From NCBI RefSeq assembly GCF_016793705.1, contig NZ_JAEULO010000001.1:93238-157237 (forward strand): a stretch of DNA of 64,000 nt. The letters run 5' to 3'. The notes beneath the pieces are model-generated. The model saw only the letters and a program-made list of their open reading frames with translations, had not been told where the DNA came from and did no database searches. The translations under genes were made by a program, and so were the position numbers. Position 1 is the first letter of the stretch, and each line of letters starts with the position of its first letter. Shown here one piece after another: positions 10,744 through 32,452 of the stretch. The DNA is from Tabrizicola sp. (GTDB taxonomy: Bacteria > Pseudomonadota > Alphaproteobacteria > Rhodobacterales > Rhodobacteraceae).

Positions 10744-10744
10744 T

Positions 10745-13587: not shown

Positions 13588-13712
13588 GATCCTGCCTTCG
13601 GACAAAGGGGGAAGCACCCCCGGTTCTCGTGGTCTGGGCAGGATTTTCCGCGCGAAGCTGCGTCAGGGCAATGCGGTCAATCCGCATGATACAATGACGC
13701 TGTCTCATGATT

Positions 13713-15632
13713 TCAGAGTGTGGCGGCGGCCTTCAACCCGTCGTAGACCGCTTCTTCGGCGGTGCGTGGAGCCATGGCGTCGCCGATGGTCAGCACCTCG
13801 GCCAGGTCGGCAACCTGCGCGCGCAGGTCATCGGCCGGGCGGTGGCCGAGGCACATCACCACCGTTTCCGCCTCGACCTCGATGGCGGCACCGCTGGAAG
13901 TGTGCTGCAGGTAGACCATCCCCCCCGCCGCGCCGTAAAGCCTTGCGTAGGGCGTGACCGTGACGCCCAGGCCATGCAGGCGGGCGGCGATGTCGTCTCG
14001 GACGTAAAGCGGCAGCTGGCCGCCCAGCATCGGCGCGGTCAGGGCAAGCGTCACGCTGCAGCCCTGCTGAACCAGCGCCTCGGCGATGCCCGGTCCGATC
14101 CAGTCGGCGCGCCAATCGGCGACCAGCACGCGCCGCCCGGTCTTGGCGCCTTGCAGCACCCCCCAGGCCGTCAGCATTTGCACCGAGCCGTCCTCGGGCA
14201 GCTCTGGCACGTAAGGCACGGCGCCGGTGGCGAGGATCACGACATCGGGGGCCTCTGCCGCCACCGTCTCGCGGGTCACGCGGATGCCGCGTTTCACCCG
14301 GACCTGCGCCAGCTCCATCTCGCGCGAGAGGTTGGTGACGATGCCGCCGAACTCGGCGCGCCTTGGCAGAAGTTGCGCCAGACGCGCCTGGCCTCCCAGC
14401 TGCGCCTCGGCCTCGTACAGCGTCACTTCATGGCCGCGTGCCGCCGCGACCGCCGCCGCTTTCATGCCAGCGGGGCCTCCGCCGACCACCATGACCTTCT
14501 TGCGCCGAACCGCCGGGGACAGGGTGCCGAACCTCAGCTCTCGCCCGGTTTCGGGGTGCTGGATGCAGGATATCGGCAGGCCGCGGTGGAAGTGCCCGAT
14601 GCAGGCCTGGTTGCAGCCAATGCAGGCACGGATGTCGTCCAGCCGCCCGGCCTGCGCTTTCATGGGCATTTCCGGGTCGGCGATCAGTGCGCGGGTCATG
14701 CCGCACATGTCGGCCTGTCCCGCCGCGAGGATCGCCTCGGCCACCTGCGGCTGATTGATCCGACCTGCCACAAAGACCGGAACACCCACGGCCCACTTCA
14801 GCCGTGCCGAAGCCTCGGCCAGATAGCCCGCGGCGAAAGCCATCGGCGGGGCGATATGCACTGCGCCCCCCAGCGTGGCCGAGGTGCCGAGGGTGACATT
14901 CAGGTAGTCCACATAGGGCTCAAGCGTTTTGCAGGCAGTGTCGACCTCGTCGGCTTGCAGCCCCGCCTCTTCACGCTCGTCGGCCGAAATCCGCATGCCG
15001 ATGATGAAGCTCTCCGGCACAGCCGCCCGCATCGCCTGCAGACAATCGCGCAGGAACCTCGTCCGGTCCCGCCCCCAAGCATCGGTCCGCAGATTGACGC
15101 GGGGGTTCAGGAACTGCGCGGGGAGATAGCCATGCGAGGCCACATATTCGACCCCGTCAAACCCCGCCTTGGCCAGCCGTGCGGCCGAGGCCGCATAGCC
15201 CGCCACGATCTCGGCGATCATGCCCTCGTCCAGTTCACGTGGCATGACGTGAAAGCGCTCGTTCGGCACGACCGAGGGTGCCCAGGCCACCGCCAACAGC
15301 CCGTCCGCGCTTTCCATGATCTCGCGTCCCGGATGGAACAGCTGGCTGATGATCACCGCGCCCTCGGCATGGACGGCCTCGGCCAACGCGCGAAAGCCCG
15401 GGATGCAGGAGTCTTCCGTCGCCATCAGCAGGTGCGAGGTATAGCGCGCCGTCTCATGCACCCCCGCCACCTGGGTGACGATCAGCCCGACGCCCCCCTT
15501 GGCACGCGCCCGATGATAGGCGATCAGCGCTTCGTTCACCGTGCCATCCGTCGGCAGGGTTGTGTCATGCCCGGTCGACAGAATCCGGTTGCGGATCACC
15601 TTTCCCCGGATGGTCAGCGGCGAGAACAGCAT
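13713..15632 (-). CDS. FMN/FAD/[4Fe-4S] oxidoreductase, dienoyl-CoA reductase / DgcA-like demethylase family
   Basis: 639 residues from ATG 15632. Residues 1 to ~330 are an Old Yellow Enzyme-type FMN barrel (HPGREIMES at 100-108, ASHGYLPAQFLNP at 165-177). Cys337, Cys340, Cys344 and Cys356 (CIGCNQACIG ... SCIQHP) bind a 4Fe-4S cluster. A FAD/NAD domain follows with VVGGGPAGMKAA from residue 382. The family holds 2,4-dienoyl-CoA reductase, trimethylamine dehydrogenase and the N-demethylases DgcA (dimethylglycine) and stachydrine demethylase. In a carnitine-type operon, demethylation of a methylamine moiety is likely, but reduction of an enoyl-CoA betaine is a real alternative. Start is one base after the cupin stop. 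Confidence 0.87.
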   Translation of the reverse strand: MLFSPLTIRGKVIRNRILSTGHDTTLPTDGTVNEALIAYHRARAKGGVGLIVTQVAGVHETARYTSHLLMATEDSCIPGFRALAEAVHAEGAVIISQLFHPGREIMESADGLLAVAWAPSVVPNERFHVMPRELDEGMIAEIVAGYAASAARLAKAGFDGVEYVASHGYLPAQFLNPRVNLRTDAWGRDRTRFLRDCLQAMRAAVPESFIIGMRISADEREEAGLQADEVDTACKTLEPYVDYLNVTLGTSATLGGAVHIAPPMAFAAGYLAEASARLKWAVGVPVFVAGRINQPQVAEAILAAGQADMCGMTRALIADPEMPMKAQAGRLDDIRACIGCNQACIGHFHRGLPISCIQHPETGRELRFGTLSPAVRRKKVMVVGGGPAGMKAAAVAAARGHEVTLYEAEAQLGGQARLAQLLPRRAEFGGIVTNLSREMELAQVRVKRGIRVTRETVAAEAPDVVILATGAVPYVPELPEDGSVQMLTAWGVLQGAKTGRRVLVADWRADWIGPGIAEALVQQGCSVTLALTAPMLGGQLPLYVRDDIAARLHGLGVTVTPYARLYGAAGGMVYLQHTSSGAAIEVEAETVVMCLGHRPADDLRAQVADLAEVLTIGDAMAPRTAEEAVYDGLKAAATL

Positions 15633-15633
15633 C

Positions 15634-15975
15634 CTACAGCCCCGCCCTTGCCCGCCAATCGACCGGCGAGAGCGCATAGAAGACCGTCGCCCCCTCGCCT
15701 TCGTAGCGCAAAGGCGTATTGGCCGGCACCCAGAGGACATCGCCGGGCTCGCAATCATAGACCGTCTCGCCGACGCACAGGCGGAAATTGCCCTCCAAGG
15801 TCACGATCAGCTCGTCATAAAGCACCGTCCAGGCGATGGAACAGCCGTCGAACTTCGCGATTCCCGCCCCCATCGAGGAGCTGATCTCGGGCCCGACAAG
15901 GCGCGCGATCTGCCCGCCTTCGCCATAGGCGTCGAAGCGGCGCTCGGCAGCTTTGAACTGAACGATGCCAGACAT
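15634..15975 (-). CDS. small cupin-domain protein (EutQ-like)
   Basis: 113 residues, a single cupin barrel: AWTVLYDELIVTLEGNFRLCVG, then DCEPGDVLWVPANTPLRY. Only few metal-ligand histidines are present, so an enzymatic role is unclear; small cupins of this kind accompany ethanolamine and betaine pathways. The start at 15975 has a GGAGGAGATATGTC-like leader with a strong Shine-Dalgarno. It is the first gene of the minus-strand operon and faces the XRE-cupin regulator across the palindromic operator. Confidence 0.8.
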   Translation of the reverse strand: MSGIVQFKAAERRFDAYGEGGQIARLVGPEISSSMGAGIAKFDGCSIAWTVLYDELIVTLEGNFRLCVGETVYDCEPGDVLWVPANTPLRYEGEGATVFYALSPVDWRARAGL

Positions 15976-17848: not shown

Positions 17849-18658
17849 TCAGAGTCCGAGGGTCGCCCTGAAGTCCTCGAACTCTATATCGTCCATGGCA
17901 ACGGTGTGCTGTCGCTGCGGATAACCACCGGACATCACGTCTGCAGCGAACTCCTTGAACGCATCGATACGTTCGCTCTGAAGGCGCGCATACTCGGCGG
18001 CGAAGTTTCGATAGGTCTTGGCGTGGCGCGGTTTGTGCCCGTCCGTGCAGCCCAGCACATCCTCGGCGAACAGGTATTGCGCATCCGCGCCCGGACCGGC
18101 GCCCATGCCCAGCATCAGCATGGGCGTGTTTGCGCTGATGAAAGCCCCCAGGCGGTCCGGCACGCATTCCAGTTCTGCGGCAAACGCCCCGATTTCCTCC
18201 AGCCGCTTGATCTGGTCCCAGACGCGTCGCGCTTCGGTCGACGTCTTGCCGACCGCGCGCCAACCTGTCCAGGTGACGATGTTGGGGTTCATGCCCACAT
18301 GCGCCACGATCGGGACATGGTTGTCACAAAGGGTCTTCTGGATGTCGAAGGCGGCAGCACAATAGAAGCTGTCACCACCCATCGCCATGAAATGATAGGC
18401 CGCGCGCAGGTAGTCATCGGCGGTGACCAGTGTCCCGTTCGGCCCGTAGGGCAAGCCGATCTGGACGAAGCAGTTGCCGGCGGCCTCTCGCATTGCGGGT
18501 GAAAAGAAGCGGGCCTCGATCGACAGCATGTGGATCCCGGCCTGCGCCGCCGCCGCCGCTTCCTCTGACGTCGTGACATAGAGCATCGCGATCTTCTCGC
18601 CGCGCGCTTTCATCTGGCGCATGTCATGGACGGTGGGGCGGGTGTTCTTGTGGACCAT
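17849..18658 (-). CDS. PanB-like (ketopantoate hydroxymethyltransferase family) protein
   Basis: 269 residues. The C-terminal half is typical PanB: VAHVGMNPN (His120), WRAVGKT at 133-139, LECVPDRL (Glu164) and GMGAGPGADAQ at 185-194. In the N-terminal half the canonical VGDS metal/substrate motif reads LSIEA (residues 45-49), so the chemistry may differ from pantothenate synthesis. PanB enzymes move a hydroxymethyl group between 5,10-methylene-tetrahydrofolate and a 2-oxo acid. Here the gene is the last of a catabolic operon with two oxygenases and a Rieske protein, not near panC, so a C1-handling catabolic role (perhaps in the retro-aldol direction) is inferred. Confidence 0.82.
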   Translation of the reverse strand: MVHKNTRPTVHDMRQMKARGEKIAMLYVTTSEEAAAAAQAGIHMLSIEARFFSPAMREAAGNCFVQIGLPYGPNGTLVTADDYLRAAYHFMAMGGDSFYCAAAFDIQKTLCDNHVPIVAHVGMNPNIVTWTGWRAVGKTSTEARRVWDQIKRLEEIGAFAAELECVPDRLGAFISANTPMLMLGMGAGPGADAQYLFAEDVLGCTDGHKPRHAKTYRNFAAEYARLQSERIDAFKEFAADVMSGGYPQRQHTVAMDDIEFEDFRATLGL

Positions 18659-18670
18659 GTCCGGGCTCCT

Positions 18671-18982
18671 TCAGGGAATGAATATCTGGACCTGGCCGTC
18701 CTCGACCCGGGTCTGGAAGGTGGCGAGATTGACGCAGACCGGGGCCCGCACGGCCTCGCCGGTGCGATAGTCGAACTGGCCGTTGTGCTTGGGGCACTCG
18801 ACGACATAGTCCATCACCAGCCCGTCGGCGAGGTGGACCCGCTCGTGGGTGCAATGGCCGTCGGTGCAGAAAAATTCGTCATCCGGACTGCGATAGATCG
18901 CGAAGCTGCGGCCGGCATGGTCGAAGCGCATCAGGTCTTCGGTCTCGATGTCATCGGTGGAACAGGCGGTGATCCAGGGCAT
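18671..18982 (-). CDS. MocE-like Rieske [2Fe-2S] ferredoxin
   Basis: 103 residues, one Rieske domain. The cluster ligands are Cys44-x-His46 (DGHCTHERVHL) and Cys63-x2-His66 (VECPKHNGQFDY). Such small soluble Rieske proteins pass electrons to a partner oxygenase; MocE does so in rhizopine (3-O-methyl-scyllo-inosamine) demethylation. The gene lies 31 bp from the fatty-acid-desaturase/MocD-like gene, the expected oxygenase partner. No ferredoxin reductase (MocF) is encoded in this window. Confidence 0.9.
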   Translation of the reverse strand: MPWITACSTDDIETEDLMRFDHAGRSFAIYRSPDDEFFCTDGHCTHERVHLADGLVMDYVVECPKHNGQFDYRTGEAVRAPVCVNLATFQTRVEDGQVQIFIP

Positions 18983-19013
18983 CTGGGCTCCAGTCTAGAA
19001 GTGTCGTGTCGGG

Positions 19014-20138
19014 CTATTCGGCGGCATGCGGAAGCGGATAGCCGCCGATACCCGGTGTCGGCTGGCCGGGTTCGAGGTCGCCGTGGAACTCGGGCCGGTA
19101 GGGCTTGGCGGTGGCGGGCAACTGCCGCTTCACGAACCAGTCGGGATTGCGGAACTGCCTGGCGAGCGTGGGGATGATCTCGGCATAGGCCGACAGGATC
19201 GACGGATGCGCAGGCGGCAGGTCATGCCGGATCAGCGCATGCAGGCGCGGCAGGGCGTGATAGGGCACCATCGGGAACATGTGGTGTTCGACGTGGTAGT
19301 TCATGTTCCAGTAGATGAACCGGCTGACCGGGTTGATGTAGACGGTGCGGCTGTTCAGCCGGTGGTCCAGCACATTCTCGGCAAGGCCCAGATGCTGCAT
19401 GTAGCCGGTCATGACCATGTGCCAGCTGCCAAACAGGATGGGCATTCCGATCACCATGAAGGGCAGGATCGAGCCGAGCCAGACGGCGAGGGCGGCGGTG
19501 GACAGATAGATCAAACCCCAGATGCGCGCGATGCGGAAGGCCTTCGGCTGTTCGCTGGCGGGCACGAAGGAGCAGGTGGTTTCGGGCATATGGCCGAAGA
19601 TCAGCTGGAGCGTGGCCTTGCCGTTGCCCCAAAGCTCGAACAGGCCGAAGAAGTTCAGGATCAGCCGCGCCACGACGGCGGGGCGCATGGCGATGATTTC
19701 AGGATCATGACCCACGATGATGGTGTCGGTGTGATGCCGGGCGTGGCTCCAGCGCCAGACCACCGGGTTGCGCAACATGCAGAAGCAGGCGATCTGGTAG
19801 AGGGCATCGTTCATCCAGCGGGTGCGGAAGGCCGTGCCGTGCCCGCATTCGTGCCAGCGCGAATCCATCGCCGAGGCATAGAGCACGCCGTAGATCGCCC
19901 AGAAGGGTGCCGACCACCAGGACGGCCACAGCCAGATGCCTGCGGCGGCCGATCCGATCATGGTGGCGAACAGGATGATCGTATCGCGGATGGCAGGAAG
20001 GTCGCCACGCTGCATCAGATCCTTCATCAACTTTCGCGGAATCTCGGTGTGATACCAGGCTGCCGACACGAGCCCGATCTCCTCGGCGAGCCTGGCGTCC
20101 CGTCCAAGCAGGGCATAGTCGCGGTTGGTGCGGGCCAT
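19014..20138 (-). CDS. MocD-like membrane fatty acid desaturase-family oxygenase
   Basis: 374 residues from ATG 20138 (GAAGAGAATACCG in front; an in-frame ATG at 20153 is less likely). The three histidine boxes of membrane di-iron desaturases/hydroxylases are seen: HECGH (96-100), HARHH (132-136) and HVEHH (282-286), with hydrophobic segments at ~50-90 and ~205-245. MocD of rhizobia is a member and acts with MocE in removing the O-methyl group of rhizopine. Its pairing with a MocE-like gene immediately downstream supports an oxidative demethylation or hydroxylation step at the membrane. Confidence 0.88.
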   Translation of the reverse strand: MARTNRDYALLGRDARLAEEIGLVSAAWYHTEIPRKLMKDLMQRGDLPAIRDTIILFATMIGSAAAGIWLWPSWWSAPFWAIYGVLYASAMDSRWHECGHGTAFRTRWMNDALYQIACFCMLRNPVVWRWSHARHHTDTIIVGHDPEIIAMRPAVVARLILNFFGLFELWGNGKATLQLIFGHMPETTCSFVPASEQPKAFRIARIWGLIYLSTAALAVWLGSILPFMVIGMPILFGSWHMVMTGYMQHLGLAENVLDHRLNSRTVYINPVSRFIYWNMNYHVEHHMFPMVPYHALPRLHALIRHDLPPAHPSILSAYAEIIPTLARQFRNPDWFVKRQLPATAKPYRPEFHGDLEPGQPTPGIGGYPLPHAAE

Positions 20139-20229
20139 CGGTATTCTCTTCATTCGTTTCTGGGTTGGAAGGGGGGTGCCGGGCCGACGGGAGGGAGGAA
20201 GCGGCCCGGCACAAGGTGGTCGCTTGCCG

Positions 20230-21237
20230 TCAACCCGAGCGAGCGGCCATCTTTTCGCGGCGCCGCTTCATCCGGCGGTCCAGCACGGCATCCGAGGCGG
20301 CGGTGCCGTCATGGTAGGTGCCGAAGATCTTGTCGAAGGGCACGGTTCCGTCGCCGTAGTTCACCTCGAAATACTTGTGGTGGAGGTAGTGGTTATAGGT
20401 GTGAGTATCCATCAGCTTCTCGTCCCCGAGGGCGATCTTGTCGAAGCCGATATGCCCGACGATCGAGCCGAGACCGGACAGTTGCAGGTGGTAGAGTGCG
20501 AACAGCGGATGGGCGGGCACGACCAGGTAGAGGAGCGAGCTGGAGAAGAAGAGAAGCTGCTCGACCGGGTGCATCGACAGCGACGACCAGGGGCTGGGAT
20601 TGACCGAGTTGTGGTGGATCGAGTGGATGTGCTTGTAGAAGAACGGCAAGTGCAGCGGCCGGTGGATCAGGTAGAAATGCCCCTCGTGCCAGATCGGCAC
20701 CAGAAGCCAGAGCGCGGTGAACCAGACCGGATGCGCCTCGAAGGTCGACCAGGCGCCGATGCCGTTGGCGTAGCACCACAGGATCAGCACCTCGTAGGCC
20801 GTCCAGATCGGGACGCCGGTCGCGAAGGTGCGGATGATGCCGTCGATGGTCTGGCTCTTGAACATGAACACGTCGGAGGGGTGTTCCTTTGGCCAGCGAT
20901 GGTTGTACTTGAACTGGTTCCCCTGCCGGCGCTGGACGTAGAGCCGCAGTTCCATCGCGCCGAAGAAGATCAGCACCGCCGCCGAGTTGCGCAGGAACAG
21001 GTAGAGGATCCAGCCAGGCGCAAGCGACCGGGTCGTCTCGACCGAGGGGGTCAGGAAGAACCAGTAGATCGCGGCCAGCACCATGAACGACAGGTTCCAG
21101 GGCAGGAAGTAACCCTTCAGAAAGCCGAGGATGTCGCGCGCCTTCCAGGGTAGGCGGTAGATCGGCGCGATGCTCAGCGGCTCGTTCGGGGTCCAGTCGC
21201 CGCGCTTGTTCCGGGTTCCGTATTGCAGGTCGTCCAT
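20230..21237 (-). CDS. sterol desaturase / fatty acid hydroxylase superfamily protein
   Basis: 335 residues from ATG 21237 with GAGGAGG upstream; the frame to 21336 is an over-extension. Histidine clusters are HEGHF (184-187), HRPLH (192-196), HIHSIHH (203-209), His223 and a C-terminal HYLHHKYFE, the pattern of ERG3-type membrane di-iron hydroxylases. At least four hydrophobic segments occur (~46-65, ~75-95, ~140-160, ~168-185). This is a second, unrelated di-iron oxygenase in the same operon as the MocD-like one. The substrate is unknown; it may oxidise the same solute at another carbon. Confidence 0.87.
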   Translation of the reverse strand: MDDLQYGTRNKRGDWTPNEPLSIAPIYRLPWKARDILGFLKGYFLPWNLSFMVLAAIYWFFLTPSVETTRSLAPGWILYLFLRNSAAVLIFFGAMELRLYVQRRQGNQFKYNHRWPKEHPSDVFMFKSQTIDGIIRTFATGVPIWTAYEVLILWCYANGIGAWSTFEAHPVWFTALWLLVPIWHEGHFYLIHRPLHLPFFYKHIHSIHHNSVNPSPWSSLSMHPVEQLLFFSSSLLYLVVPAHPLFALYHLQLSGLGSIVGHIGFDKIALGDEKLMDTHTYNHYLHHKYFEVNYGDGTVPFDKIFGTYHDGTAASDAVLDRRMKRRREKMAARSG

Positions 21238-21247
21238 GAGAGCCTCC

Positions 21248-22147
21248 TCAGGTCCAGTATCTGTCGATGAAGCGCTGCATTTCGGTGCGCATGAAGGCCG
21301 AGGACTGGTCGGCCCTGTCCTCCCAGGCGAAGACACAGGCGGTCATGATCCCGTCAAAGCCCACCTCTGCCAGCGTGCCGAAGAAATCGTCCCAAGGCAC
21401 CTCGCCCTGGCCGATGTCCAGGTGCTGGTGCACGCGCGCCTGGGTGCCGGGCGGGTTAAGGATATAGCGCAGGCCCGAGCTGGCCTTGTGATTGAAGGTG
21501 TCGCCCACATGCACATGGGCCAGCACATCGGCACATTCGCGGATCATCGCCCTGGTGTCGTCGCCGAAGTAGAAGGTATGCGGGGCGCAATACAGGAACC
21601 TGACGCGGGGACTGTTCACCGTGCGGATGATGTCCACCGCGGGTTGCAGCGTCTCGACCCAGTCCTCGGGATGCGGCTCGATGTGAAGAGTGATGCCCTC
21701 CCGCTCCAGGATCGGCACCAGTTCTTCCATGCTGCGCCACCAGGCATCCTCGCAGGTCTCGATCATGCTGCCGGTGTGGCAGCAATAGCAGGATCCCTTA
21801 TCGGGGTGCGGTCCGCGCCCGAATTCCGAGTTCATCGTGTCGATCTCCATCTCGACGCAGATCTCGATGGCGCGTTTCCAGTGGCGCACGGCGGCCTGCC
21901 GCTCGGCCTCGTCGTTGGAGGCCCAGCGATACATCGGAAGCAGGCTGGCGATCTTCACGTTCTCGGCGGCCAGCGCCGCCTTGAATGTCCTGATCCGGTC
22001 AGGAAAGACGCGGGGCGCCTTGAACCATTCCAGAAAGTCGGCGCGGGGCGAAAGCTCGATCCAGTCATAGCCCAGCTCGCGCACCTTGCGGGGCAGCTCT
22101 TCCAGGCTCAGGTGGCGGTGCATGAAGGGGTCAAGTGCGATGCGCAT
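21248..22147 (-). CDS. sugar phosphate isomerase/epimerase family protein (MocC/IolE type)
   Basis: 299 residues, AP-endonuclease-2/xylose-isomerase TIM barrel. Expected metal-site glutamates and histidines occur in NSEFGRGPHPD (~115), TLHIEPHPEDW (~165), LAHVHVGDTFNHK (~215) and HQHLDIGQGEVPWDDFF (~245). Members include IolE (2-keto-myo-inositol dehydratase), IolI, MocC and hydroxypyruvate isomerase. The neighbouring MocA-like dehydrogenase and sugar ABC transporter favour action on a keto-inositol or similar cyclic polyol. The gene is 10 bp from both neighbours, so cotranscribed. Confidence 0.88.
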   Translation of the reverse strand: MRIALDPFMHRHLSLEELPRKVRELGYDWIELSPRADFLEWFKAPRVFPDRIRTFKAALAAENVKIASLLPMYRWASNDEAERQAAVRHWKRAIEICVEMEIDTMNSEFGRGPHPDKGSCYCCHTGSMIETCEDAWWRSMEELVPILEREGITLHIEPHPEDWVETLQPAVDIIRTVNSPRVRFLYCAPHTFYFGDDTRAMIRECADVLAHVHVGDTFNHKASSGLRYILNPPGTQARVHQHLDIGQGEVPWDDFFGTLAEVGFDGIMTACVFAWEDRADQSSAFMRTEMQRFIDRYWT

Positions 22148-22157
22148 GATGCGTCCC

Positions 22158-23339
22158 TCAGTTCAGGTCGACCCAGACGCTGCCCGCCTCGTGGCTGTCA
22201 GCGGCTGAATTTACGAAGCGGGCGCCCCGCGCCCCGGTGTGGATATCGGGCAGGCAGAGCAGCCCCTCGGGCACCGTCTCGCCATTGCGGCGGGCAGCGA
22301 CGGCAATCGCGATCTCGCGGTAGAGGTTGCCCCAGGCATCCGAGAGGGATTCCCCGTGCCCGCGCGGCAGCAGGACCATACGTTCGGCCGGCGCCGCCAT
22401 GCCTGCACCATGCCCGCGCACAATGATCTGTTCCGGGGCGTTCAGGGGTGTGTAGCGCAGGGTTTCGGGGAATTCCTGATCCCAGTGCAGCCCGCCCTTG
22501 TCGCCATAGACGCGGACGCGCAGGGCGCAGTAGTTGCCGGGCGCGGCCTGGGTGATCCACATCGCGGCGGGCGCGCCGTTCGCCAGCTTCAGCGACAGGA
22601 AGGCGGTGTCCTCCATCGCCTTGGGCGCGCCACAGACATGGAAGTCGGCGCGCAAGCGCACGACCTTCTGGCCGGCGACGAATTCCAGCATCTGGAAGGC
22701 ATGGGTCCCGATGTCGCCCGTCGCCGAGGCGCGGCCGATCTTCGCAGGGTCGCGCCGCCAGGCCAGGCTGCGCGAGTTCGGATCGTCCGGCTCGGTCGCC
22801 CAGTCCTGCGCATATTCGACCTGGGCTTGCCGCACCGTGCCGATGGCGCCGACCTTCACCATCTCGGCGGCCTGCCGCGCCATCGGATGATAGGGATAGG
22901 GGTAGGTTAGCGCGAAGACGAGGCCCGTCTCGCGCTGCCGTTGTTCCAGCGCGACGCAATCCTCGCGCGAGATGGTCATCGGCTTGTCGCAGATGATGTC
23001 GATACCCTGGTCCATGAAGGCTTCCGCAATGGCCCGGTGCGACCAGTTCGGCGTGCAGATCACCACCGCCTCGATTCCGTCCGGGCGGGCGGCCTCGGCC
23101 CGTGCCATCTCGCGATAATCTGCATAGATGCGGTCCTCGGGCAGCATCCAGTCGCGGCCCGAAGCGGCAGCCGTCGCCGGGTCGGAGGACAGCGCCCCGG
23201 CTACCAGGTCCCAGCGGTTGGACAGTCGCGCGCCGGTCCAGTGCCACTGGCCGACCAGCGCGCCACGCCCGCCGCCGACGATACCCAGTCGCAGGCGGCG
23301 CTGCGCAGGCGGATAGAATACGGTCCCTGCAAGGGCCAT
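22158..23339 (-). CDS. Gfo/Idh/MocA family oxidoreductase
   Basis: 393 residues. The NAD-binding N-terminus reads RLRLGIVGGGRGALVG (16-31), then ICTPNWSHRAIAEAFM and the family lysine motif in IICDKPMTIS (usual EKP) near residue 120. The C-terminal substrate domain carries GDIGTHAFQMLEFVAG near 225 (catalytic Asp/His) and GGLHWDQEFPE. The family oxidises a secondary alcohol of cyclic or linear polyols to a ketone; the rhizopine enzyme MocA and inositol dehydrogenases are members. GGAG precedes the ATG at 23339. Operon position after the transporter genes suggests it does the first cytosolic step. Confidence 0.9.
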   Translation of the reverse strand: MALAGTVFYPPAQRRLRLGIVGGGRGALVGQWHWTGARLSNRWDLVAGALSSDPATAAASGRDWMLPEDRIYADYREMARAEAARPDGIEAVVICTPNWSHRAIAEAFMDQGIDIICDKPMTISREDCVALEQRQRETGLVFALTYPYPYHPMARQAAEMVKVGAIGTVRQAQVEYAQDWATEPDDPNSRSLAWRRDPAKIGRASATGDIGTHAFQMLEFVAGQKVVRLRADFHVCGAPKAMEDTAFLSLKLANGAPAAMWITQAAPGNYCALRVRVYGDKGGLHWDQEFPETLRYTPLNAPEQIIVRGHGAGMAAPAERMVLLPRGHGESLSDAWGNLYREIAIAVAARRNGETVPEGLLCLPDIHTGARGARFVNSAADSHEAGSVWVDLN

Positions 23340-23380
23340 GTCGCAAACTCCGTTCTTCGTTCGGTGAACCTCGGGACCCG

Positions 23381-24172
23381 TCAGGTCCTGATCACGTGGT
23401 AGGTGACTTCCTCGATCGACGTGTCTTCCTTGCGAGCCTCGTAGACCTTGGCGCCATGGCTCATCACCACGAAGCGGTCGCAGACCTGGAAGGCGTGATA
23501 GAGATTGTGCGTGACCAGGACCGAGGACGTGCCCTGGTTTTTCAGATCGCGCACATAGGCCAGAAGGTGTTCGGTCTCACGCACCGACAGGGCCGAGGTG
23601 GGTTCGTCCAGCAACAGGATATTGCGCTTGAAGTAGACCGCGCGGGCAATGGCGACCGCCTGCTTCTGCCCGCCCGACAGGAAGCCCACCTCCTTGTCGG
23701 GATCTTCGATCCCCGAGATCTGGACGGCTGAGCCGAGGATGTCGATCGCCTTGTCCTCCATCGCCTTGTGATCCATGAAGCCGAAGGCATTGGTGATCTC
23801 GCGGCCGAGAAAGATGTTGCGGGTGATCGACATCTGGTCGACCAGCGCAATGTCCTGATAGATCGTCTCGATCCCCGCCGCCTCGGAATCGGCGCGGCTG
23901 TTGAAGTTCACCGGCTTGCCATTGGCCAGAATCTCGCCCGAGGTCGGCGGGTTGATCCCCGACATCATCTTGACCAGCGTCGACTTGCCCGCGCCGTTGT
24001 CACCCAGAAGCCCCACGACCTCGTTGCGACCGATGTAGAAGTTCATCGAGTTGAGCGCGACGAAGGCGCCGTATCGCTTGGTAATGTTGCGCATCTCCAG
24101 CAGCGGGGTCTCGGTAGGGCGCAGCCCCTTGATCGGCTTTTCTTCCGGTTCGATGATTTGAAGGTCGCTCAT
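23381..24172 (-). CDS. sugar-type ABC transporter ATP-binding protein
   Basis: 263 residues with one nucleotide-binding domain: Walker A GDNGAGKST (~57-65), signature FLSGGQKQAVAIARA and Walker B ILLLDEPTSAL. It belongs to the carbohydrate-uptake-2 type (FrcA/RbsA-like), here as a single rather than a doubled domain, so a homodimer is expected. It is seven bases from the permease gene and works with it and the binding protein at 25332. Confidence 0.93.
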   Translation of the reverse strand: MSDLQIIEPEEKPIKGLRPTETPLLEMRNITKRYGAFVALNSMNFYIGRNEVVGLLGDNGAGKSTLVKMMSGINPPTSGEILANGKPVNFNSRADSEAAGIETIYQDIALVDQMSITRNIFLGREITNAFGFMDHKAMEDKAIDILGSAVQISGIEDPDKEVGFLSGGQKQAVAIARAVYFKRNILLLDEPTSALSVRETEHLLAYVRDLKNQGTSSVLVTHNLYHAFQVCDRFVVMSHGAKVYEARKEDTSIEEVTYHVIRT

Positions 24173-24178
24173 TTCGGA

Positions 24179-25237
24179 TCAGCCTTTCCGCCGGATGGCC
24201 ATGTTGGTGATGACCGAGATCACGATCAGCCCACCAACGAACATGTCGAAGTAGAAGCCGGGTGCGCGCAGAAGCAGGAGAAGATCCTGAATCGTGTACA
24301 TCAGCGCGGTGCCCAAGACGACGCCCAGAATCGAGCCGCGGCCTCCATTCAGCGCTGCGCCACCGATGACGCAGGCGGCGATAGCTTGCAGTTCAAGCCC
24401 CAGACCGCCGCCTGGCTGGATCGACATAACTCGCGTGCCGGCCAGGATACCGGAAAACGCCGCCATGAAACCACAGATGCCGAAGGCAATGATCTTGGTG
24501 CGCACCGGGTTCACACCAATTGCGACGGCTGCATTCCTGTTGCCGCCAACGGCAAAGAAGTGGTTGCCCAGCCGGTGATGATGGAGAAGGAAATAGAAGG
24601 CGACCGCCAGCAGCAGGAACCAGATCATCGAAGCGTGAACGACGCCGATCGAGCTGTTGAACAGCGTATTGAAGGGTTCCGACGGCTTGAAGCGCAGGGA
24701 TTGCGCGCCGTGATACAACAGCGTGGCCCCCTTCCACATCAGCATCGCGCCAAGCGTGGTGATGAAGCTGGGGATATTGAACCGCAAGGTGATGACAGCG
24801 TGCAGCACGCCGGCCAGCGCGCCGATTAGAAGCCCGACGGCGAGCCCGGCGAAGGGCGCGATGGCAGAGGGAACATCTGCGCCACTGTCACCGCCCCAGG
24901 TCATGGTCAGGGTCGCGGCGACGATCGAGCAGAAAGAGTAGAGCGCGCCCACTGAAAGATCGAATTCTCCGGCGATCATCAGGATCGAGACGCCAAGCGC
25001 CATGACACCCAACGGCGCAATCGCCTTTAGCGTGACCGCGATATTCGCGGCATCGAGATAGCGAAAGCTGGGATTGGCCAGCGAGACGGCGATCACCACC
25101 AACTGCACCGCCAGGAACAGGACGGCTATGCCGCCTTCCGGTTTGGTGCGTACCCAATCGACTATGCGCGAACTTCTGCTGCGCCGATTGCGTTGCTGGA
25201 TCGCTGCGCGGATGTGATCGGATTGTGCCGTGGCCAT
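24179..25237 (-). CDS. sugar-type ABC transporter permease (RbsC/FrcC family)
   Basis: 352 residues, about ten hydrophobic segments, BPD_transp_2 fold. Typical segments are GVMALGVSILMIAGEFDLSVG (~88-108), ITLRFNIPSFITTLGAMLMWKG and GLELQAIAACVIGGAALNGG (~290-310). These proteins form homodimeric channels for ribose, fructose, inositol or rhizopine-like compounds. It follows the binding-protein gene after a 94-bp gap that contains a GC-rich hairpin. Confidence 0.93.
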   Translation of the reverse strand: MATAQSDHIRAAIQQRNRRSRSSRIVDWVRTKPEGGIAVLFLAVQLVVIAVSLANPSFRYLDAANIAVTLKAIAPLGVMALGVSILMIAGEFDLSVGALYSFCSIVAATLTMTWGGDSGADVPSAIAPFAGLAVGLLIGALAGVLHAVITLRFNIPSFITTLGAMLMWKGATLLYHGAQSLRFKPSEPFNTLFNSSIGVVHASMIWFLLLAVAFYFLLHHHRLGNHFFAVGGNRNAAVAIGVNPVRTKIIAFGICGFMAAFSGILAGTRVMSIQPGGGLGLELQAIAACVIGGAALNGGRGSILGVVLGTALMYTIQDLLLLLRAPGFYFDMFVGGLIVISVITNMAIRRKG

Positions 25238-25292
25238 CGCCGGGTCCTTCCTCGGAATTGTCGCTCTTGCCAGGGCCTTTGCCCTGCAATGG

Positions 25293-25314
25293 AGGGGGCC
25301 ATTTCCGGCCCCCT
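25293..25314 (-). promoter_or_regulatory. hairpin between binding-protein and permease genes
   Basis: AGGGGGCC - ATTTCC - GGCCCCCT, perfect 8-bp arms, 18 bp after the stop of the binding-protein gene (minus strand). No long T-run follows, so partial termination or mRNA protection is likely, which would raise binding-protein levels over the membrane parts. Confidence 0.55.
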
Positions 25315-25331
25315 TCGTCGTGTCAGCGTGT

Positions 25332-26303
25332 TCAGCGCACCACGCCGGCCCATTCCACCGCAGCCTTGTAGTTGGTCTTGTCGACCAGACCTGCGCCGCC
25401 GGTGTTCATTTCGGAGGGGTACAGTCCGTATTTGACCGCCAGTGCCGCCTGCGTCACACCGTAGAAGCCCTGCGAATAGGGCTGCTGGTCGACCGCTGCG
25501 ATCATGTCGCCATTCTCGATGTCCTTCAGGATCGATTCCGAAATGTCGAACCCGCCGATAGCCACGGTCAGACCGGCATCCTTGGCCGCCTGAACCGCCT
25601 GGCTGGTCGGCGTCTGGCCGAGGCCGATGATCGCCTTCACGTCAGGGTGGCCGATCAGATACTGCGTCATCAGGTTCAGGGCCTGGCCATGGTCGTTGCC
25701 GGTGCCCAGAACCTCCGACTTCGCTCCGACCTCATCCAGTGCCTTCTGGACGCCCTCGTGACGCAGGACGGCGTAGGTGCCCTCGGGCGCTTCGACCGGC
25801 GTGAAGACCAGATCGCCTTCCTTGATGCCGGCTTCGGCGATCATGCGCTTACCCAGGTTGTAGCCTGACTCGACGAAATCCTGGCCCATGAAGGCCATGC
25901 GGCAAATGCCGCCGTCGGCGCCCTTGCTGTCGTCGATGTTGATCGTCAGGACCACGATCCCGGCTGCTGCGGCCCGGCACAACACCTCGTCGTAGGCGTT
26001 GTCGTCGGCGATGCCGACCACGATGGCGTCGACCTTGTTGGCGATGGCGGTTTCCAGGATGGTTGTTTCGTTGACCGGATCCTCCTCGCCATACTGGATG
26101 TCGAGCGTGATGCCCTGTTGCGCAGCAGCGTCCTTGCCGCCGTTGTTCACCGCCTCGAAGAACGGGTTGGAGGCTTGCGACCAGTGCAGCATCAGGATGT
26201 CGATGCTCGACCAGTCGTGGTCCTTATCATCAGCGCGGGCGATTCCGCCGAGCGCCAGCGCCGTCGAAAGCGCCAACCCTGCAATCCCTGTCTTGAAGTT
26301 CAT
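25332..26303 (-). CDS. sugar-type ABC transporter substrate-binding protein (MocB/RbsB-like)
   Basis: 323 residues from ATG 26303 with AGGAGG upstream; the frame to 26324 is an over-extension. A Sec signal peptide (MNFKTGIAGLALSTALALGGIARA) precedes a Peripla_BP_4 domain: LMLHWSQASNPFFEAVNNGG near 40, NKVDAIVVGIADDNAYD near 95 and VAIGGFDISESILKDIENGD near 250. This class binds ribose, inositol and rhizopine. It is the first gene of the catabolic operon, facing the LacI regulator. Confidence 0.92.
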   Translation of the reverse strand: MNFKTGIAGLALSTALALGGIARADDKDHDWSSIDILMLHWSQASNPFFEAVNNGGKDAAAQQGITLDIQYGEEDPVNETTILETAIANKVDAIVVGIADDNAYDEVLCRAAAAGIVVLTINIDDSKGADGGICRMAFMGQDFVESGYNLGKRMIAEAGIKEGDLVFTPVEAPEGTYAVLRHEGVQKALDEVGAKSEVLGTGNDHGQALNLMTQYLIGHPDVKAIIGLGQTPTSQAVQAAKDAGLTVAIGGFDISESILKDIENGDMIAAVDQQPYSQGFYGVTQAALAVKYGLYPSEMNTGGAGLVDKTNYKAAVEWAGVVR

Positions 26304-26614
26304 GTCTTTCCTCCTGTTGCGCACAGCCCATCGTTGCCGGAAAGAAGACCTTTCCGAGTGATTCTGCGTTTAGGGCAATGGGCGGTCTCCTCCCCGCACG
26401 CCGGGAGCATTCACCCGACGCAACTTCATGGTGCACAGCCGAAGTGCAGGAATCAAGGATTTGCAACTTTTGTTGCCGACGAGAGACGCCGACTTAAAGC
26501 AGTTGTTTTTCCGCTGGTTACAAGGCGCGACGTGTTGTCGCACGTCGAACTTGACGTGATCGCCTCAAAATTGTCGGCTACGGGTGATCGCTACCGGGCC
26601 GAGGGAAGAGGACG
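26304..26614. promoter_or_regulatory. 311-bp divergent promoter region with two operator candidates
   Basis: No gene is supported here. Two inverted repeats are seen: GCAAC-TTTT-GTTGC at 26463-26476 and CGACGTG-TTGTCG-CACGTCG at 26528-26547 (perfect 7-bp arms), followed by a further GACGTG at about 26553. They lie between the minus-strand ABC operon and the plus-strand LacI-type gene, where a LacI protein usually binds both promoters. Confidence 0.5.
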
Positions 26615-27619
26615 ATGCGCCGACCGACATTCGCGATGATAGCCCAGGATGCCGGCGTCAGCCTGGCGACGGTAGAGCGGGTACTGAACGGTCGGGGGGG
26701 CGTGCAGAAGGACAAGACCGAGCGCGTGATCAACGCCGCGGTAAGGCTGGGATGGGACCGGCGTCTTCCCGAGGTCCACCGTGGTGTGGTGCGTGTCGAA
26801 TTCATCATCGCACGGCCCGAAACCACGTTCTTCGCCCGGCTGGTCCACGAGTTTGAAAAGATCGCGCAGAGCCTGGATTCGCGCGTCGCCTTGCACCGCA
26901 CCGTCCTGACCGACGACCCCATGCTTTTCGCCAGGCGCATCTCTGGCTCGGGGGTGCAGCGTGCAGGACTGATCGTTGTAGGTCCCGACCATCATCTTGT
27001 CCGCGCGGCCCTGGCCGAGGTGCGCGCGACCGGAACCTACATCATCCAGATCGTGACGCGGACCTTTGGCACCGAACTCGATTATGTCGGCATCGACAAC
27101 TACAGTGCGGGTCGCACTGCGGCCATGTACATTTGGCGCATGTGCCGGGCGAAGGGCTCAGTGGTCGTCCTTTGTCCCGGCAATCAGTTCGAGGCTCATC
27201 GCGAGCGTATTCGAGGGTTTAGCGACTATGTTGATGCCCACCCTTCACCGGACCTGCAGTTTGAACGCCTGATGTTCGGACGCGATGACGGACCCTATGG
27301 CGCTTCCCTGCTCGCTGACTGCCTGCAAGAGCGGGATGACATCGTGGGCTTCTACAACTCCGGCGGCCACAACTCGCTGATCGGGCCCGTCTTGGAGTCC
27401 CATTCCAGGGGCAAGGCGATATTCTTCGTCGGCCACGAGTTCAACGCTTGGAGCGCCGCAGCCCTGAGTGACGGACGGATGGATGTGGTCCTCGACCAAG
27501 CGCCGGAAGTGCAGGCGCGTCGCGCGCTGGACATGGTGCTTTACCGGGTTGGCCTGACGACCATTCCGGTCCCGAACCCGCCCATCCGCTTTACAACGAT
27601 GACGGCAGAATCGTGCTAG
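26615..27619 (+). CDS. LacI family transcriptional regulator
   Basis: 334 residues. The N-terminal HTH_LacI domain reads TFAMIAQDAGVSLATVERVL (5-24) followed by the hinge-type region NGRGGVQKDKTERVINAA. The rest is a periplasmic-binding-like effector domain (VRVEFIIARPETTFFARLV ... DYVGIDNYSAGRTAAMYIW ... VLDQAPEVQARRALDM). GAGGGAAGAGGACG precedes the ATG at 26615. It is divergent from the rhizopine/inositol-like operon and presumably represses it until the transported compound or a product binds. Confidence 0.9.
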   Translation: MRRPTFAMIAQDAGVSLATVERVLNGRGGVQKDKTERVINAAVRLGWDRRLPEVHRGVVRVEFIIARPETTFFARLVHEFEKIAQSLDSRVALHRTVLTDDPMLFARRISGSGVQRAGLIVVGPDHHLVRAALAEVRATGTYIIQIVTRTFGTELDYVGIDNYSAGRTAAMYIWRMCRAKGSVVVLCPGNQFEAHRERIRGFSDYVDAHPSPDLQFERLMFGRDDGPYGASLLADCLQERDDIVGFYNSGGHNSLIGPVLESHSRGKAIFFVGHEFNAWSAAALSDGRMDVVLDQAPEVQARRALDMVLYRVGLTTIPVPNPPIRFTTMTAESC

Positions 27620-27780: not shown

Positions 27781-28479
27781 CTAGACCGAAACCGCAGCCC
27801 TGAGCGCGGCCTTGTCGAATTCGCCGGTCCGGCCCGAGGCCGAGACCGCGCCGCGGCGCATGACATAGATCTGGTCGGCCAGTTGGTAGGCGAACTCGAA
27901 AAACTGCTCGACCAGCACGATCGCCATGTCGCCCCGGGCTTTCAGCGCCTTCAAGACCTCGCCGATCTCCTGGATGATGTTGGGCTGGATGCCTTCGGTC
28001 GGCTCGTCCAGCAGCAGCGCCCTTGGCCGCATGATCAGCGCGCGGGCAATGGCCAGTTGCTGTTGCTGCCCGCCGGAAAGATCGCCGCCGCGCCGGTGCA
28101 GGAAATCCCGCAGGATCGGGAAATAACCGAAAATCTCATCCGGAATCCGGTGCTCGGCCTTTGGCAGGACGGCAAAGGCAGTGTGCAAGTTTTCGCGCAC
28201 CGACAGCAGGGGAAAGATCATCCGGCCCTGCGGGACGACGGCAAGGCCGCGCCGGGCCATGTCTTGCGCGCGGACCGGGGGCAGGCTTTCGCCGTTCAGC
28301 ACGATCTGGCCGCCGGACCGGGGGTGCGTGCCGGCCAGGGCCTTGAGAAAGGAGGTCTTGCCCACCCCGTTCGGGCCGAGAATGCAGGTGATTTCGCCGG
28401 TCTTCGCGGCGAAATCGATGCCGTGCAGGATCTGGCTGCCGCCGTAGTGCAAGGTGAGGCCGGTGGTTTCCAGCATCAC
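27781..28479 (-). CDS. urtE: urea ABC transporter ATP-binding protein UrtE
   Basis: 232 residues. Walker A GPNGVGKTS (~34-42), signature DLSGGQQQQLAIARAL and Walker B ALLLDEPTEGIQPNIIQEI; the last phrase is typical for UrtE. LivF-like protein, second ATPase of the urea transporter. It overlaps urtD by ATGA and ends the operon. No urease genes follow in this window; a convergent LacI gene ends 161 bp away. Confidence 0.93.
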   Translation of the reverse strand: MMLETTGLTLHYGGSQILHGIDFAAKTGEITCILGPNGVGKTSFLKALAGTHPRSGGQIVLNGESLPPVRAQDMARRGLAVVPQGRMIFPLLSVRENLHTAFAVLPKAEHRIPDEIFGYFPILRDFLHRRGGDLSGGQQQQLAIARALIMRPRALLLDEPTEGIQPNIIQEIGEVLKALKARGDMAIVLVEQFFEFAYQLADQIYVMRRGAVSASGRTGEFDKAALRAAVSV

Positions 28480-29219
28480 CCGCGCCCCAGATAGACGCTG
28501 ACCACCTGCGGGTCGCGGGTGACATGGTCGAGGCTGCCTTCCGCCAGAACCGCGCCCTCATGCAGCACTGTCACCCGGCAGTCCAGGCGGCGGACGAAAT
28601 CCATGTCATGCTCCACCACGACGACGGCGCGGTCTTGCGCCAGATTGACCAGAAGGTCGGTGGTCTGCGCGCGCTCGGCCGGGGTCATGCCGGCGACCGG
28701 TTCGTCCACCAGCAAGAGCCGGGGTTCCTGCGCCAGAAGCATCGCAATCTCCAGCCATTGCTTCTGGCCGTGGGACAGCTCGCCCGATTTGCGCTGCAGA
28801 TGGCCGCTGAGGCCCACCTCATTGGCCAGCGCGCGAACACGGGCCAGGTCGGCGGGTTTCGGCGACCAGAACAGCACCTTCCACGGGCTGCGCGCGGCCT
28901 TCAGCGCGAGGATCAGGTTGGCCTCGACGGTCTGATCCTCGAACACGGTCGGACGCTGGAACTTGCGACCGATGCCTTCGCGGGCGATGCGGGCCTCGTT
29001 CAGACCCAGAAGCGAGATCGACCGGGGGCCGAAAGTGACGGTGCCGCTGTCGGGCCGGGTCTTGCCGGTGATGATATCCATGAAAGTGGTCTTGCCGGCG
29101 CCGTTCGGGCCGATGATGGCGCGCAGCTCGGCGGGGCCGATCGAGAAGGACAGGTTGTTGATGGCGCGGAAGCCGTCGAAAGAAACAGAGACGCCGGAAA
29201 CCTCAAGAAGCGCGGTCAT
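28476..29219 (-). CDS. urtD: urea ABC transporter ATP-binding protein UrtD
   Basis: 247 residues, LivG-like. Walker A GPNGAGKTT (~37-45), GKTRPDSGTVTF, signature ELSHGQKQWLEIAMLL (His in place of the second Gly, as usual in UrtD) and Walker B LLLVDEPVAGMTPAE. First ATPase of the urea transporter; its start overlaps the urtC stop and its stop overlaps the urtE start, so all are translated from one message. Confidence 0.93.
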   Translation of the reverse strand: MTALLEVSGVSVSFDGFRAINNLSFSIGPAELRAIIGPNGAGKTTFMDIITGKTRPDSGTVTFGPRSISLLGLNEARIAREGIGRKFQRPTVFEDQTVEANLILALKAARSPWKVLFWSPKPADLARVRALANEVGLSGHLQRKSGELSHGQKQWLEIAMLLAQEPRLLLVDEPVAGMTPAERAQTTDLLVNLAQDRAVVVVEHDMDFVRRLDCRVTVLHEGAVLAEGSLDHVTRDPQVVSVYLGRG

Positions 29220-30448
29220 TCCTGCGCCTCCTGTTCCTGCAGGCTGCCGTCATCGGGGCCCAGGGGCGCACCCTTGCGGTCGGGGGTGCCGATATGCAGG
29301 AAGCGGTCGAAAAGGCCGCCGATGCCTTTTGGGGCAAGAAGCGTGACCGCAACGAAGCTGAACCCGAGGATCACCAGCCACCAGTCCACCCAGGCAATGC
29401 TGACGGGGCCGAGGGGGATGTCAGGCAGGCGACCCGAGGTGAAAAGGCTTGAGAGCAGCGACACGAAACCCGCACCGATCACCGCGCCGTACAGCCGCCC
29501 ACGTCCGCCGATGGCGACCCAGACGGCAAGGTAGATCGAGGCGATCGGGGCCAGTTCCGCCGGGTTGATGATCCCGGCCTGCGGGTAGTAAAGCACGCCC
29601 GCCAGCGTTGCGACCAGGGCGGTCAGGGTGAAGACGAAAAGCTTGTAGGCCTCGACCGGGTAGCCAAGGAAGCGCACCCGCGCCTCGTCATCGCGGATGG
29701 CACGGATCACCGATCCGAACTTGCCCGAGACAACCCAGGCCAGCGCCAGATAGCCAAGCCCAAGCGCCAGTGCCGAGGCCCAGAAGAACCAGACCGAGAC
29801 CAGATCCTGCGAGGTATCCGTCAGACCCGGGAGGTTCTGCAGGCCGGAGAGCCCGTTGTTGCCGCGCAAGCCGCTGTCGTTCTGAAAAAGGTAAAGCGCC
29901 AGCGCCAGCGTCATCGCCTGCGTCAGGATCGAGAGGTAAACCCCGGTCACGCGGGCCCGGAACGCGAGCCAGCCGAAGACCAACGCCAGCAGGCCGGGAA
30001 CCGACAGCGCCAGGGTCAGCTGCAGGGGCAGGCTGTGCGCGAAGGTCCAGATCGCAGGCAGCTCGGACGAGCCGACGACGCCGAAGATCTGGGTGGCGAT
30101 GCCCTGTTGCACTTCCTCGGGCGTTGCCGGGAGGCCGCCCTGCGCCAGCGCCGTGACCACGATCTCTTCGGTCCGGGCATACATCAGCCACATGCCGATC
30201 ATGTAGCCGCCAAGCGCAAAGAACGCCATGTGGCCCAGCGAAAGGATGCCGGCATAACCCCAGACCAGATCCATCGCCAGGGCGACAAGGCAAAGGCACA
30301 GCGTCTTGCCCAGCGTCTTGACGAAAGAGGTGGAGATCAGCCCCGCGCCGAAGCCTTCGGAGAGAAGCGTGATGGCAAGGGTGAAAACGGCAAGAGCGGC
30401 AAGGAAGATCAGGACCGAGGGGGTGCGGGCAAGGAAGGATCGGGTCAT
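29216..30448 (-). CDS. urtC: urea ABC transporter permease UrtC
   Basis: 410 residues, LivM-like, about ten hydrophobic segments. Characteristic stretches are DLVWGYAGILSLGHMAFFALGGY near 60-82, NDSGLRGNNGLSGLQNLPG near 210 and GAVIGAGFVSLLSSLFTSGR near 345. It forms the channel with UrtB. The start is one base from the urtB stop and the stop overlaps urtD. Confidence 0.93.
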   Translation of the reverse strand: MTRSFLARTPSVLIFLAALAVFTLAITLLSEGFGAGLISTSFVKTLGKTLCLCLVALAMDLVWGYAGILSLGHMAFFALGGYMIGMWLMYARTEEIVVTALAQGGLPATPEEVQQGIATQIFGVVGSSELPAIWTFAHSLPLQLTLALSVPGLLALVFGWLAFRARVTGVYLSILTQAMTLALALYLFQNDSGLRGNNGLSGLQNLPGLTDTSQDLVSVWFFWASALALGLGYLALAWVVSGKFGSVIRAIRDDEARVRFLGYPVEAYKLFVFTLTALVATLAGVLYYPQAGIINPAELAPIASIYLAVWVAIGGRGRLYGAVIGAGFVSLLSSLFTSGRLPDIPLGPVSIAWVDWWLVILGFSFVAVTLLAPKGIGGLFDRFLHIGTPDRKGAPLGPDDGSLQEQEAQE

Positions 30449-30449
30449 G

Positions 30450-32390: not shown

Positions 32391-32415
32391 GGGGTTTCCG
32401 AGCACAGGGCAAGAC

Positions 32416-32442
32416 GCGAGAGGGGGGAGGGCCCCCTCTCGC
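32416..32442 (-). promoter_or_regulatory. hairpin between urtA and urtB
   Basis: GCGAGAGGGGG pairs perfectly with CCCCCTCTCGC (11-bp arms, 5-base loop), 10 bp after the urtA stop on the minus strand. There is no T-run downstream on that strand. The place is the usual one for a stabilising or attenuating stem that lets binding protein be made in excess of the permease. Confidence 0.6.
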
Positions 32443-32452
32443 CCGAGGCAGA

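Follow-up and report, generated by a model that had tools for sequence, protein, structure and literature searches.

What might be achieved by an operon that joins a sugar transporter to two unrelated membrane oxygenases and a relative of PanB, an enzyme of pantothenate synthesis? The question is raised by positions 17849-26303 of a 64,000-nucleotide stretch of Tabrizicola sp. DNA (contig NZ_JAEULO010000001.1, positions 93,238 to 157,237; the whole stretch is called the window here), where nine genes lie on the minus strand with intergenic gaps of 6-94 bases. We propose, at about even odds (probability roughly 0.5), that this LacI-controlled operon imports a methylated cyclic polyol, the likeliest being an inositol methyl ether, that the methyl group is removed oxidatively, and that the PanB paralogue passes its carbon to tetrahydrofolate (THF). 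The genes, their families, the intact histidine motifs and the linkage were observed in the sequence; from these we infer the chemistry.

Gene content of the operon

Pfam placed all nine proteins and the LacI protein in named families, each above the family's cut-off. The genes are as follows.

17849..18658, minus strand: PanB-like protein (Pfam Pantoate_transf, 123 bits; TIGR00222, 89.1/207.55 bits; residue loss; fold search)
18671..18982, minus strand: MocE-family Rieske [2Fe-2S] ferredoxin (NCBIfam TIGR02377, 173.2 bits; cut-off, 136.15)
19014..20153, minus strand: MocD-like desaturase-type membrane di-iron oxygenase (PF00487, 124 bits; cut-off, 29.7)
20230..21237, minus strand: ERG3/FA_hydroxylase-type membrane di-iron oxygenase (PF04116, 69.8 bits; cut-off, 31)
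21248..22147, minus strand: IolE/MocC-like TIM-barrel isomerase (PF01261, 184 bits; TIGR04379, 26.1 bits; cut-off, 290)
22158..23339, minus strand: Gfo/Idh/MocA-family dehydrogenase (Pfam; best NCBIfam match, levoglucosan dehydrogenase, 81.8/650 bits)
23381..24172, minus strand: CUT2-type sugar ATP-binding cassette (ABC) transporter ATPase with one domain, 263 amino acids (Pfam, NCBIfam)
24179..25237, minus strand: CUT2-type sugar ABC transporter permease (PF02653, 147.5 bits)
25332..26303, minus strand: periplasmic substrate-binding protein (SBP; best NCBIfam model, rhizopine SBP NF052284, 124.9/420 bits)
26615..27619, plus strand: divergent LacI-family regulator (Pfam)

The families, gene order, single strand and divergent LacI gene claimed in an earlier sequence-only reading were thus borne out by Pfam, NCBIfam and the coordinates, and its claim that the two membrane oxygenases are unrelated held as well (hhalign probability of the MocD-type against the ERG3-type profile, 0.9%). 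The LacI gene is real and divergent but lies beyond 17849-26303, the range to which that reading had assigned the set. The ERG3-type gene was taken to start at 21237 (MDDL..., the family consensus) and not at 21336, the start of the longer open reading frame; the SBP gene has an alternative start, an upstream GTG at 26324, besides 26303. Between the LacI and SBP genes only two 7-base inverted repeats were found, with one more inside the LacI gene.

A PanB paralogue without the metal-site residues

In true PanB, D45 and D84 (Escherichia coli numbering) form the metal site, together with K112 and E114, and H136 and E181 are catalytic; the metal site binds the keto acid, and retro-aldol chemistry uses the metal. 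We aligned 62 PanB-like proteins with E. coli PanB and the genome's own PanB, after dropping three odd-length pieces (two from locus L060, one from L105) from an input of 65. The loop that bears D45 was deleted in 62/62 PanB-like proteins, D84 was replaced by G, A, S or C, K112 by Y (59 proteins) or I (3), and E114 by A, S, G, C or P, such that not one of the four residues was retained in any of the 62. In contrast, H136 and E181 (His120 and Glu164 of the window protein) were kept in all 62. Three further positions of the window protein (E162, H212 and R230) were invariant throughout the 62 and differ from, or are unmatched in, both true PanBs.

The window protein scored 87.8-89.1 bits on the curated PanB model TIGR00222, under its cut-off of 207.55, while the true PanB of the same genome, at C19, scored 334 bits. 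Its structure model (predicted local distance difference test [pLDDT] score, 85) has the PanB fold; its 28 top-ranking PDB matches were all PanB, and class II aldolases appeared among those that came next. Fold and the conserved His and Glu are therefore common to both proteins, and the deleted metal loop, the replaced residues, the score below the curated cut-off and the operon context distinguish them. Because a true PanB is encoded at C19 and the metal-site residues are lost, pantothenate synthesis was ruled out as the function of the PanB-like gene, which, judged by its sequence, is a repurposed PanB paralogue. It is probably a THF-dependent one-carbon acceptor. Members of the family are annotated in database records as 3-methyl-2-oxobutanoate hydroxymethyltransferase despite the lost metal site. 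As a separate observation, 11 of the 44 genomes with a PanB-like gene (described below) had no true PanB at E 1e-50, and a dependence on external pantothenate is possible there.

Linkage of PanB-like genes to two oxygenase types

PanB-like genes were found at 50 places in 44 of 292 genomes of the window's order (E 1e-30), which was taken as Rhodobacterales via matching named records (Gemmobacter, Marivivens, Amylibacter and Loktanella). A MocD- or ERG3-type gene lay within 3 kb at 38 of these 50 places, within 10 kb at 42 and within 15 kb at 45; in the control, none of 33 true PanB genes had one within 10 kb. Since the 44 genomes carried on average about two MocD-/ERG3-type genes each, we estimated the proximity expected by chance at about 1%, and a chance gene neighbourhood was rejected by the true-PanB controls.

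With all sources pooled, 63 PanB-like loci were available, and neighbors were counted within 10 kb. An oxygenase gene was present at 54 loci, MocE at 46, a permease at 42, LacI at 41, an SBP at 40, a TIM-barrel protein at 33, an IolG-type dehydrogenase at 22, a flavin adenine dinucleotide (FAD) reductase at 12, PurU at 9 and FolD at 3. Around 20 of the 33 true PanB genes, all of these labels were absent except for one FAD reductase; a general ATPase label was found at 48/63 PanB-like loci versus 10/20 true-PanB flanks. Two loci (L114 and L115) entered through a MocD search and have an oxygenase by construction, and without them the oxygenase count is 52/61. The 63 loci include two near-identical pairs (L067/L068 and L088/L089); six loci (L055, L062, L066, L069, L071 and L076) had been removed beforehand as duplicates or close copies, and the counts also omit the truncated PanB-like gene of L011. 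The check that the sequence-only reading had proposed, a search for co-occurrence of the families across Rhodobacterales, was thus strongly positive, for MocE (46/63 versus 0/20) as for the oxygenases (42/50 versus 0/33). One locus (L097, 9124-10634) carries a tandem pair of PanB-like genes beside MocD and a glucosidase-like gene.

Sorted by oxygenase, MocD alone was present at 33 loci and the ERG3 type alone at 17, whereas 4 loci had both and 9 had neither. As a rule a locus has one oxygenase type or the other, and the window is unusual because it holds both. In a quick tree built from the 62 PanB-like proteins and two true PanBs, the nearest oxygenase type switched nine times (rows with an oxygenase within 15 kb); when "none" was added as a further state, the strongly supported branches by themselves required the MocD label to be gained or lost 8 times and the ERG3 label 6 times. 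Two unrelated oxygenases that swap round one conserved partner would point to a shared product on which the partner acts. Both types thus probably release something that the PanB-like protein handles, and formaldehyde or a hydroxymethyl ether fits that product.

The same data bear on a different role for the PanB paralogue, as a lyase, aldolase or isomerase of the carbon skeleton whose link to the oxygenases reflects a common substrate class. The PanB fold and the class II aldolases among the next structural matches would suit such an enzyme, as would the variation of sugar genes among loci and the existence of ERG3-type clusters that have no PanB-like gene (see below). However, the oxygenase link stays constant while the sugar genes vary, unrelated oxygenases interchange, and PurU and FolD are present at some loci; we consider a skeleton enzyme rather unlikely. 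A bolder reading, to which we give somewhat less than even odds, is a widespread and swappable cassette for O-demethylation: one or the other of the two unrelated membrane di-iron oxygenases would work with a PanB-fold protein that, its metal site gone, would serve as a dedicated THF-dependent acceptor of formaldehyde or of a hydroxymethyl ether. If true, this would mean a new enzyme activity and a new route of methyl-group disposal for sugars and cyclitols.

The oxygenases and their copies in the same genome

The histidines of the HECGH, HARHH and HVEHH boxes were invariant among 9 MocD-like sequences, and the His-rich motifs of the ERG3 type were invariant among 13; we take these motifs to be the ligands of di-iron centers, as in their families. 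The structure model of the ERG3-type protein (pLDDT, 69) matched nothing in the PDB at E 0.001, and neither oxygenase, searched as a profile, hit a PDB sequence at E 0.01.

Related sets occur elsewhere in the genome. At C62, two ERG3-type genes stand with LacI, two SBPs, three permeases, an ATPase, a dehydrogenase, an isomerase, MocE, a further isomerase, a PanB-like gene and two more dehydrogenases, and MocD is absent from the first 18 kb. C27 carries LacI, an ERG3-type gene and a transporter. At C39, a truncated PanB-like gene accompanies MocD and MocE, and LacI, isomerase, transporter and IolG-like genes lie alongside; this PanB-like copy (L011, 6609-7007) encodes 133 residues with 83% identity to the intact copy of a genus-mate, and its remainder was not found within that stretch.

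Inositol genes and the candidate substrate

Several relatives of the operon lie beside inositol (iol) genes. An actinobacterial contig (Ilumatobacteraceae) carries PurU, PanB-like, ERG3-type, IolG, MmsA, IolB, IolE, IolC and IolD genes, among which PurU, IolG, IolC and methylmalonate-semialdehyde dehydrogenase pass their cut-offs, IolE falls under its own, and IolB and IolD were identified by tblastn only. In Marivivens, MocD, MocE and the PanB-like gene come first, then genes for an isomerase and a transporter, and after these iolG, C, D, E and B. In Rhizobium leguminosarum Vaf-108, counterparts of the window's SBP-through-MocD block of seven genes stand in the same order (57-87% identity), and a regulator gene, iolE and iolD come next; Cypionkella has the window's gene order minus MocD and MocE. 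The label "iol" was given to 13 of the 63 loci, two of which (L101 and L103) actually carry a ribokinase-like gene.

At the genome level, iolD was present in 39 of the 44 genomes with a PanB-like gene versus 137 of the 248 others (Fisher P = 1.8e-5, with kinship ignored). Among the matches listed, at least 8/50 PanB-like and at least 12/39 MocD genes, and 0/33 true PanB genes, lay within 20 kb of a listed iolD. The window's genome has two iolD copies (C64 and C57), both above the cut-off. The SBP had 4ru1 as its closest solved chain by sequence (E 2.5e-24), which the portion of PMC10747050 consulted calls a verified myo-inositol transporter.

That the oxygenases act on membrane lipids or hydrophobic compounds, with only fortuitous co-transcription with the sugar transporter, would agree with their Pfam names (fatty acid desaturase and fatty acid hydroxylase) but is most improbable, because the oxygenase genes are found time and again with those for sugar transport, LacI and inositol breakdown, not only in the window's taxonomic order but also in Rhizobiaceae and on the actinobacterial contig. 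A methylated or alkylated cyclic polyol, already suggested by the sequence-only reading, remains the candidate substrate. That interpretation stood in part: inositol genes do lie beside several relatives and the set does differ from moc, but the PanB-like protein is more than a distinguishing extra.

Plant exudates offer a supporting hint. In Rhizobium mesoamericanum, according to the sections of PMC5789663 at hand, mocDEF-like genes, a mocB-like transporter and iol genes were induced by Mimosa exudate, in which pinitol was the most concentrated compound listed; the authors read this induction as rhizopine use. Pinitol itself would be an alternative trigger.

One-carbon genes and the proposed pathway

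PurU and FolD, at 9/63 and 3/63 PanB-like loci and 0/20 controls, are the one-carbon genes of the set. Among these loci are those of Rhizobium rhizophilum, Sinorhizobium sp. RAC02, a Neotabrizicola plasmid and an Ilumatobacteraceae metagenome-assembled genome; in the PurU-bearing genomes of the order, 2/12 PanB-like places lay no more than 5 kb from PurU (binomial probability, about 5e-4, assuming uniform density). The Neotabrizicola shimadae plasmid (L064 and L113) carries a 13-gene version of the operon: LacI, PanB-like, ERG3-type, SBP, permease, ATPase and MocE, followed by a TIM-barrel protein, an FAD reductase, a second PanB-like gene, FolD, PurU and IolG. This plasmid was typed as mobilizable.

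In the pathway that we propose, the CUT2 transporter would import the methyl-cyclitol, and the MocD-type oxygenase, the ERG3-type oxygenase or both, with electrons from the MocE ferredoxin, would hydroxylate the O-methyl carbon to yield an unstable hemiformal. The PanB paralogue, its keto-acid-binding metal site lost, would transfer the formaldehyde-level carbon to THF as 5,10-methylene-THF, which FolD and PurU, where present, could carry on to formate. The Gfo/Idh dehydrogenase and the TIM-barrel isomerase would convert the freed cyclitol to an intermediate of the iol pathway. One speculation is that the operon has two oxygenases in order to act on different methyl positions or on a pair of related substrates.

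The gene set and the one-carbon genes are also compatible with a branched cyclitol or sugar whose C-methyl group the oxygenases would hydroxylate; the neighboring hydroxyl would then be oxidized, and the PanB paralogue, run in reverse, would move the hydroxymethyl group to THF. A naturally hydroxymethyl-branched sugar would also suit L101 and L103, where PanB-like and ribokinase-like genes occur with no oxygenase. Yet retro-aldol cleavage in true PanB uses the metal, and the metal loop is deleted in 62/62 PanB-like proteins; this route is accordingly unlikely.

Evidence against the proposed O-demethylation of an inositol ether

Several observations weigh against the proposed pathway. Among the nine loci that lack an oxygenase within 10 kb, three (L009, L067 and L068) have one 10-14 kb off and one (L064) has it across the record start; L101, L103 and L104 are sugar ABC operons whose PanB-like proteins group in a single supported clade of the quick tree (a ribokinase-like kinase gene, scoring just under the cut-off, is present at L101 and L103), and at L053 and L077 no oxygenase was found within the examined stretch. 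Conversely, plasmids of Sinorhizobium meliloti (pSymA), Paracoccus yeei, Fuscovulum and Shinella (L117-L120) carry LacI, an ERG3-type gene and MocE with no PanB-like gene in 19 kb, and three of the four have an FAD reductase. The ERG3-type oxygenase can therefore dispense with the PanB-like protein, and the linkage is one-sided for this type. R. leguminosarum Vaf-108 has both oxygenases, yet neither MocE nor a PanB-like gene in the stretch described above.

With regard to the substrate, the operon's dehydrogenase reached 61.6/355 bits on the IolG model and its isomerase 26.1/290 bits on the IolE model; the dehydrogenase was closest, at a low score, to the levoglucosan dehydrogenase model. Several relatives sit with non-inositol sugar genes, and therefore the cassette may serve several methylated sugars. 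No ferredoxin reductase gene is present among the ten genes of the operon region. Finally, PurU was not found at E 1e-40 in the window's genome and four genus-mates, so that formyl-THF would have to be disposed of otherwise there.

Comparison with known systems

Rhizopine catabolism by mocRABCDEF of Sinorhizobium/Rhizobium was reportedly described by Bahar et al. in 1998. The operon resembles it in having a MocD-type oxygenase and a MocE ferredoxin (173.2 versus 136.15 on TIGR02377), MocA/MocC-type enzymes, sugar-type transport and a link to the inositol pathway. Ordinary catabolism of rhizopine (3-O-methyl-scyllo-inosamine) would account for the passed MocE model and for the rhizopine SBP model being the best NCBIfam match of the binding protein. 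However, that match reached 124.9 of the 420 bits of the NF052284 cut-off, LacI replaces MocR, mocF reductase is absent among the ten genes, and an ERG3-type oxygenase and a PanB-like protein are added, all of which make a rhizopine operon very unlikely. As several defining rhizopine features fail, we filed the operon as a MocD/MocE-type demethylation variant and not as a member of the rhizopine system. The moc gene list mocRABCDEF, as given in the portion of PMC10107442 consulted, contains no PanB-like protein; "moc" in the portion of PMC6341043 consulted denotes mannopine genes and hence was not relevant. The earlier claim that the set differs from the known moc pathway was therefore well founded (LacI, ERG3 type, PanB-like, SBP score and mocF). 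The PanB-like protein, which it had singled out as a distinguishing extra, is indeed absent from the moc set but is no oddity, being a constant partner of the oxygenases.

A second comparison is the purU-mabO-folD nicotine operon of Arthrobacter nicotinovorans pAO1, where methyl removal feeds methylene-THF (PMC3891541, in part). FolD and PurU are likewise neighbors in some relatives of the window operon. In pAO1, the N-methyl oxidase MABO itself makes methylene-THF, as far as that source covers it, whereas the window has O2-dependent membrane oxygenases and a separate PanB-like protein.

S. meliloti pSymB and Rhizobium johnstonii pRL11 carry a cluster of LacI, MocD, MocE, an FAD reductase and a PanB-like gene, for which no function was found among the matches listed in the open-licence literature. 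The core module is common to this cluster and the window operon, but the cluster has no adjacent CUT2 sugar transporter, Gfo/Idh dehydrogenase or ERG3-type oxygenase. In S. meliloti 1021 the core module lies on pSymB (607130-610801), so that a model organism is available for testing it.

Pinitol or ononitol production is common among legumes (PMC8730688, in part). Among the matches listed in the open-licence literature, none described a bacterial pathway for pinitol or ononitol demethylation, and none connected MocD/MocE or the ERG3 type to either a PanB paralogue or the demethylation of pinitol. If the proposed pathway is true, the operon would supply such a pathway, MocD/MocE clusters taken as rhizopine genes would gain an alternative reading, and a large family annotated as 3-methyl-2-oxobutanoate hydroxymethyltransferase would gain a function.

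Neighboring genes in the window

Three further features were recorded. A carnitine-type cluster at 9235-15758 includes a carnitine 3-dehydrogenase that passes its cut-off (614.6 versus 592) and crotonobetainyl-CoA hydratase-like, CoA-ligase-like and mycofactocin-type old yellow enzyme flavoenzyme genes, each under its own cut-off. A short open reading frame at 16815-17318 matches fructoselysine 6-kinase over no more than its C-terminal 158 positions and has the look of a gene remnant. A urea-type ABC transporter is encoded at 27781-33784, with UrtA and UrtC above their cut-offs.

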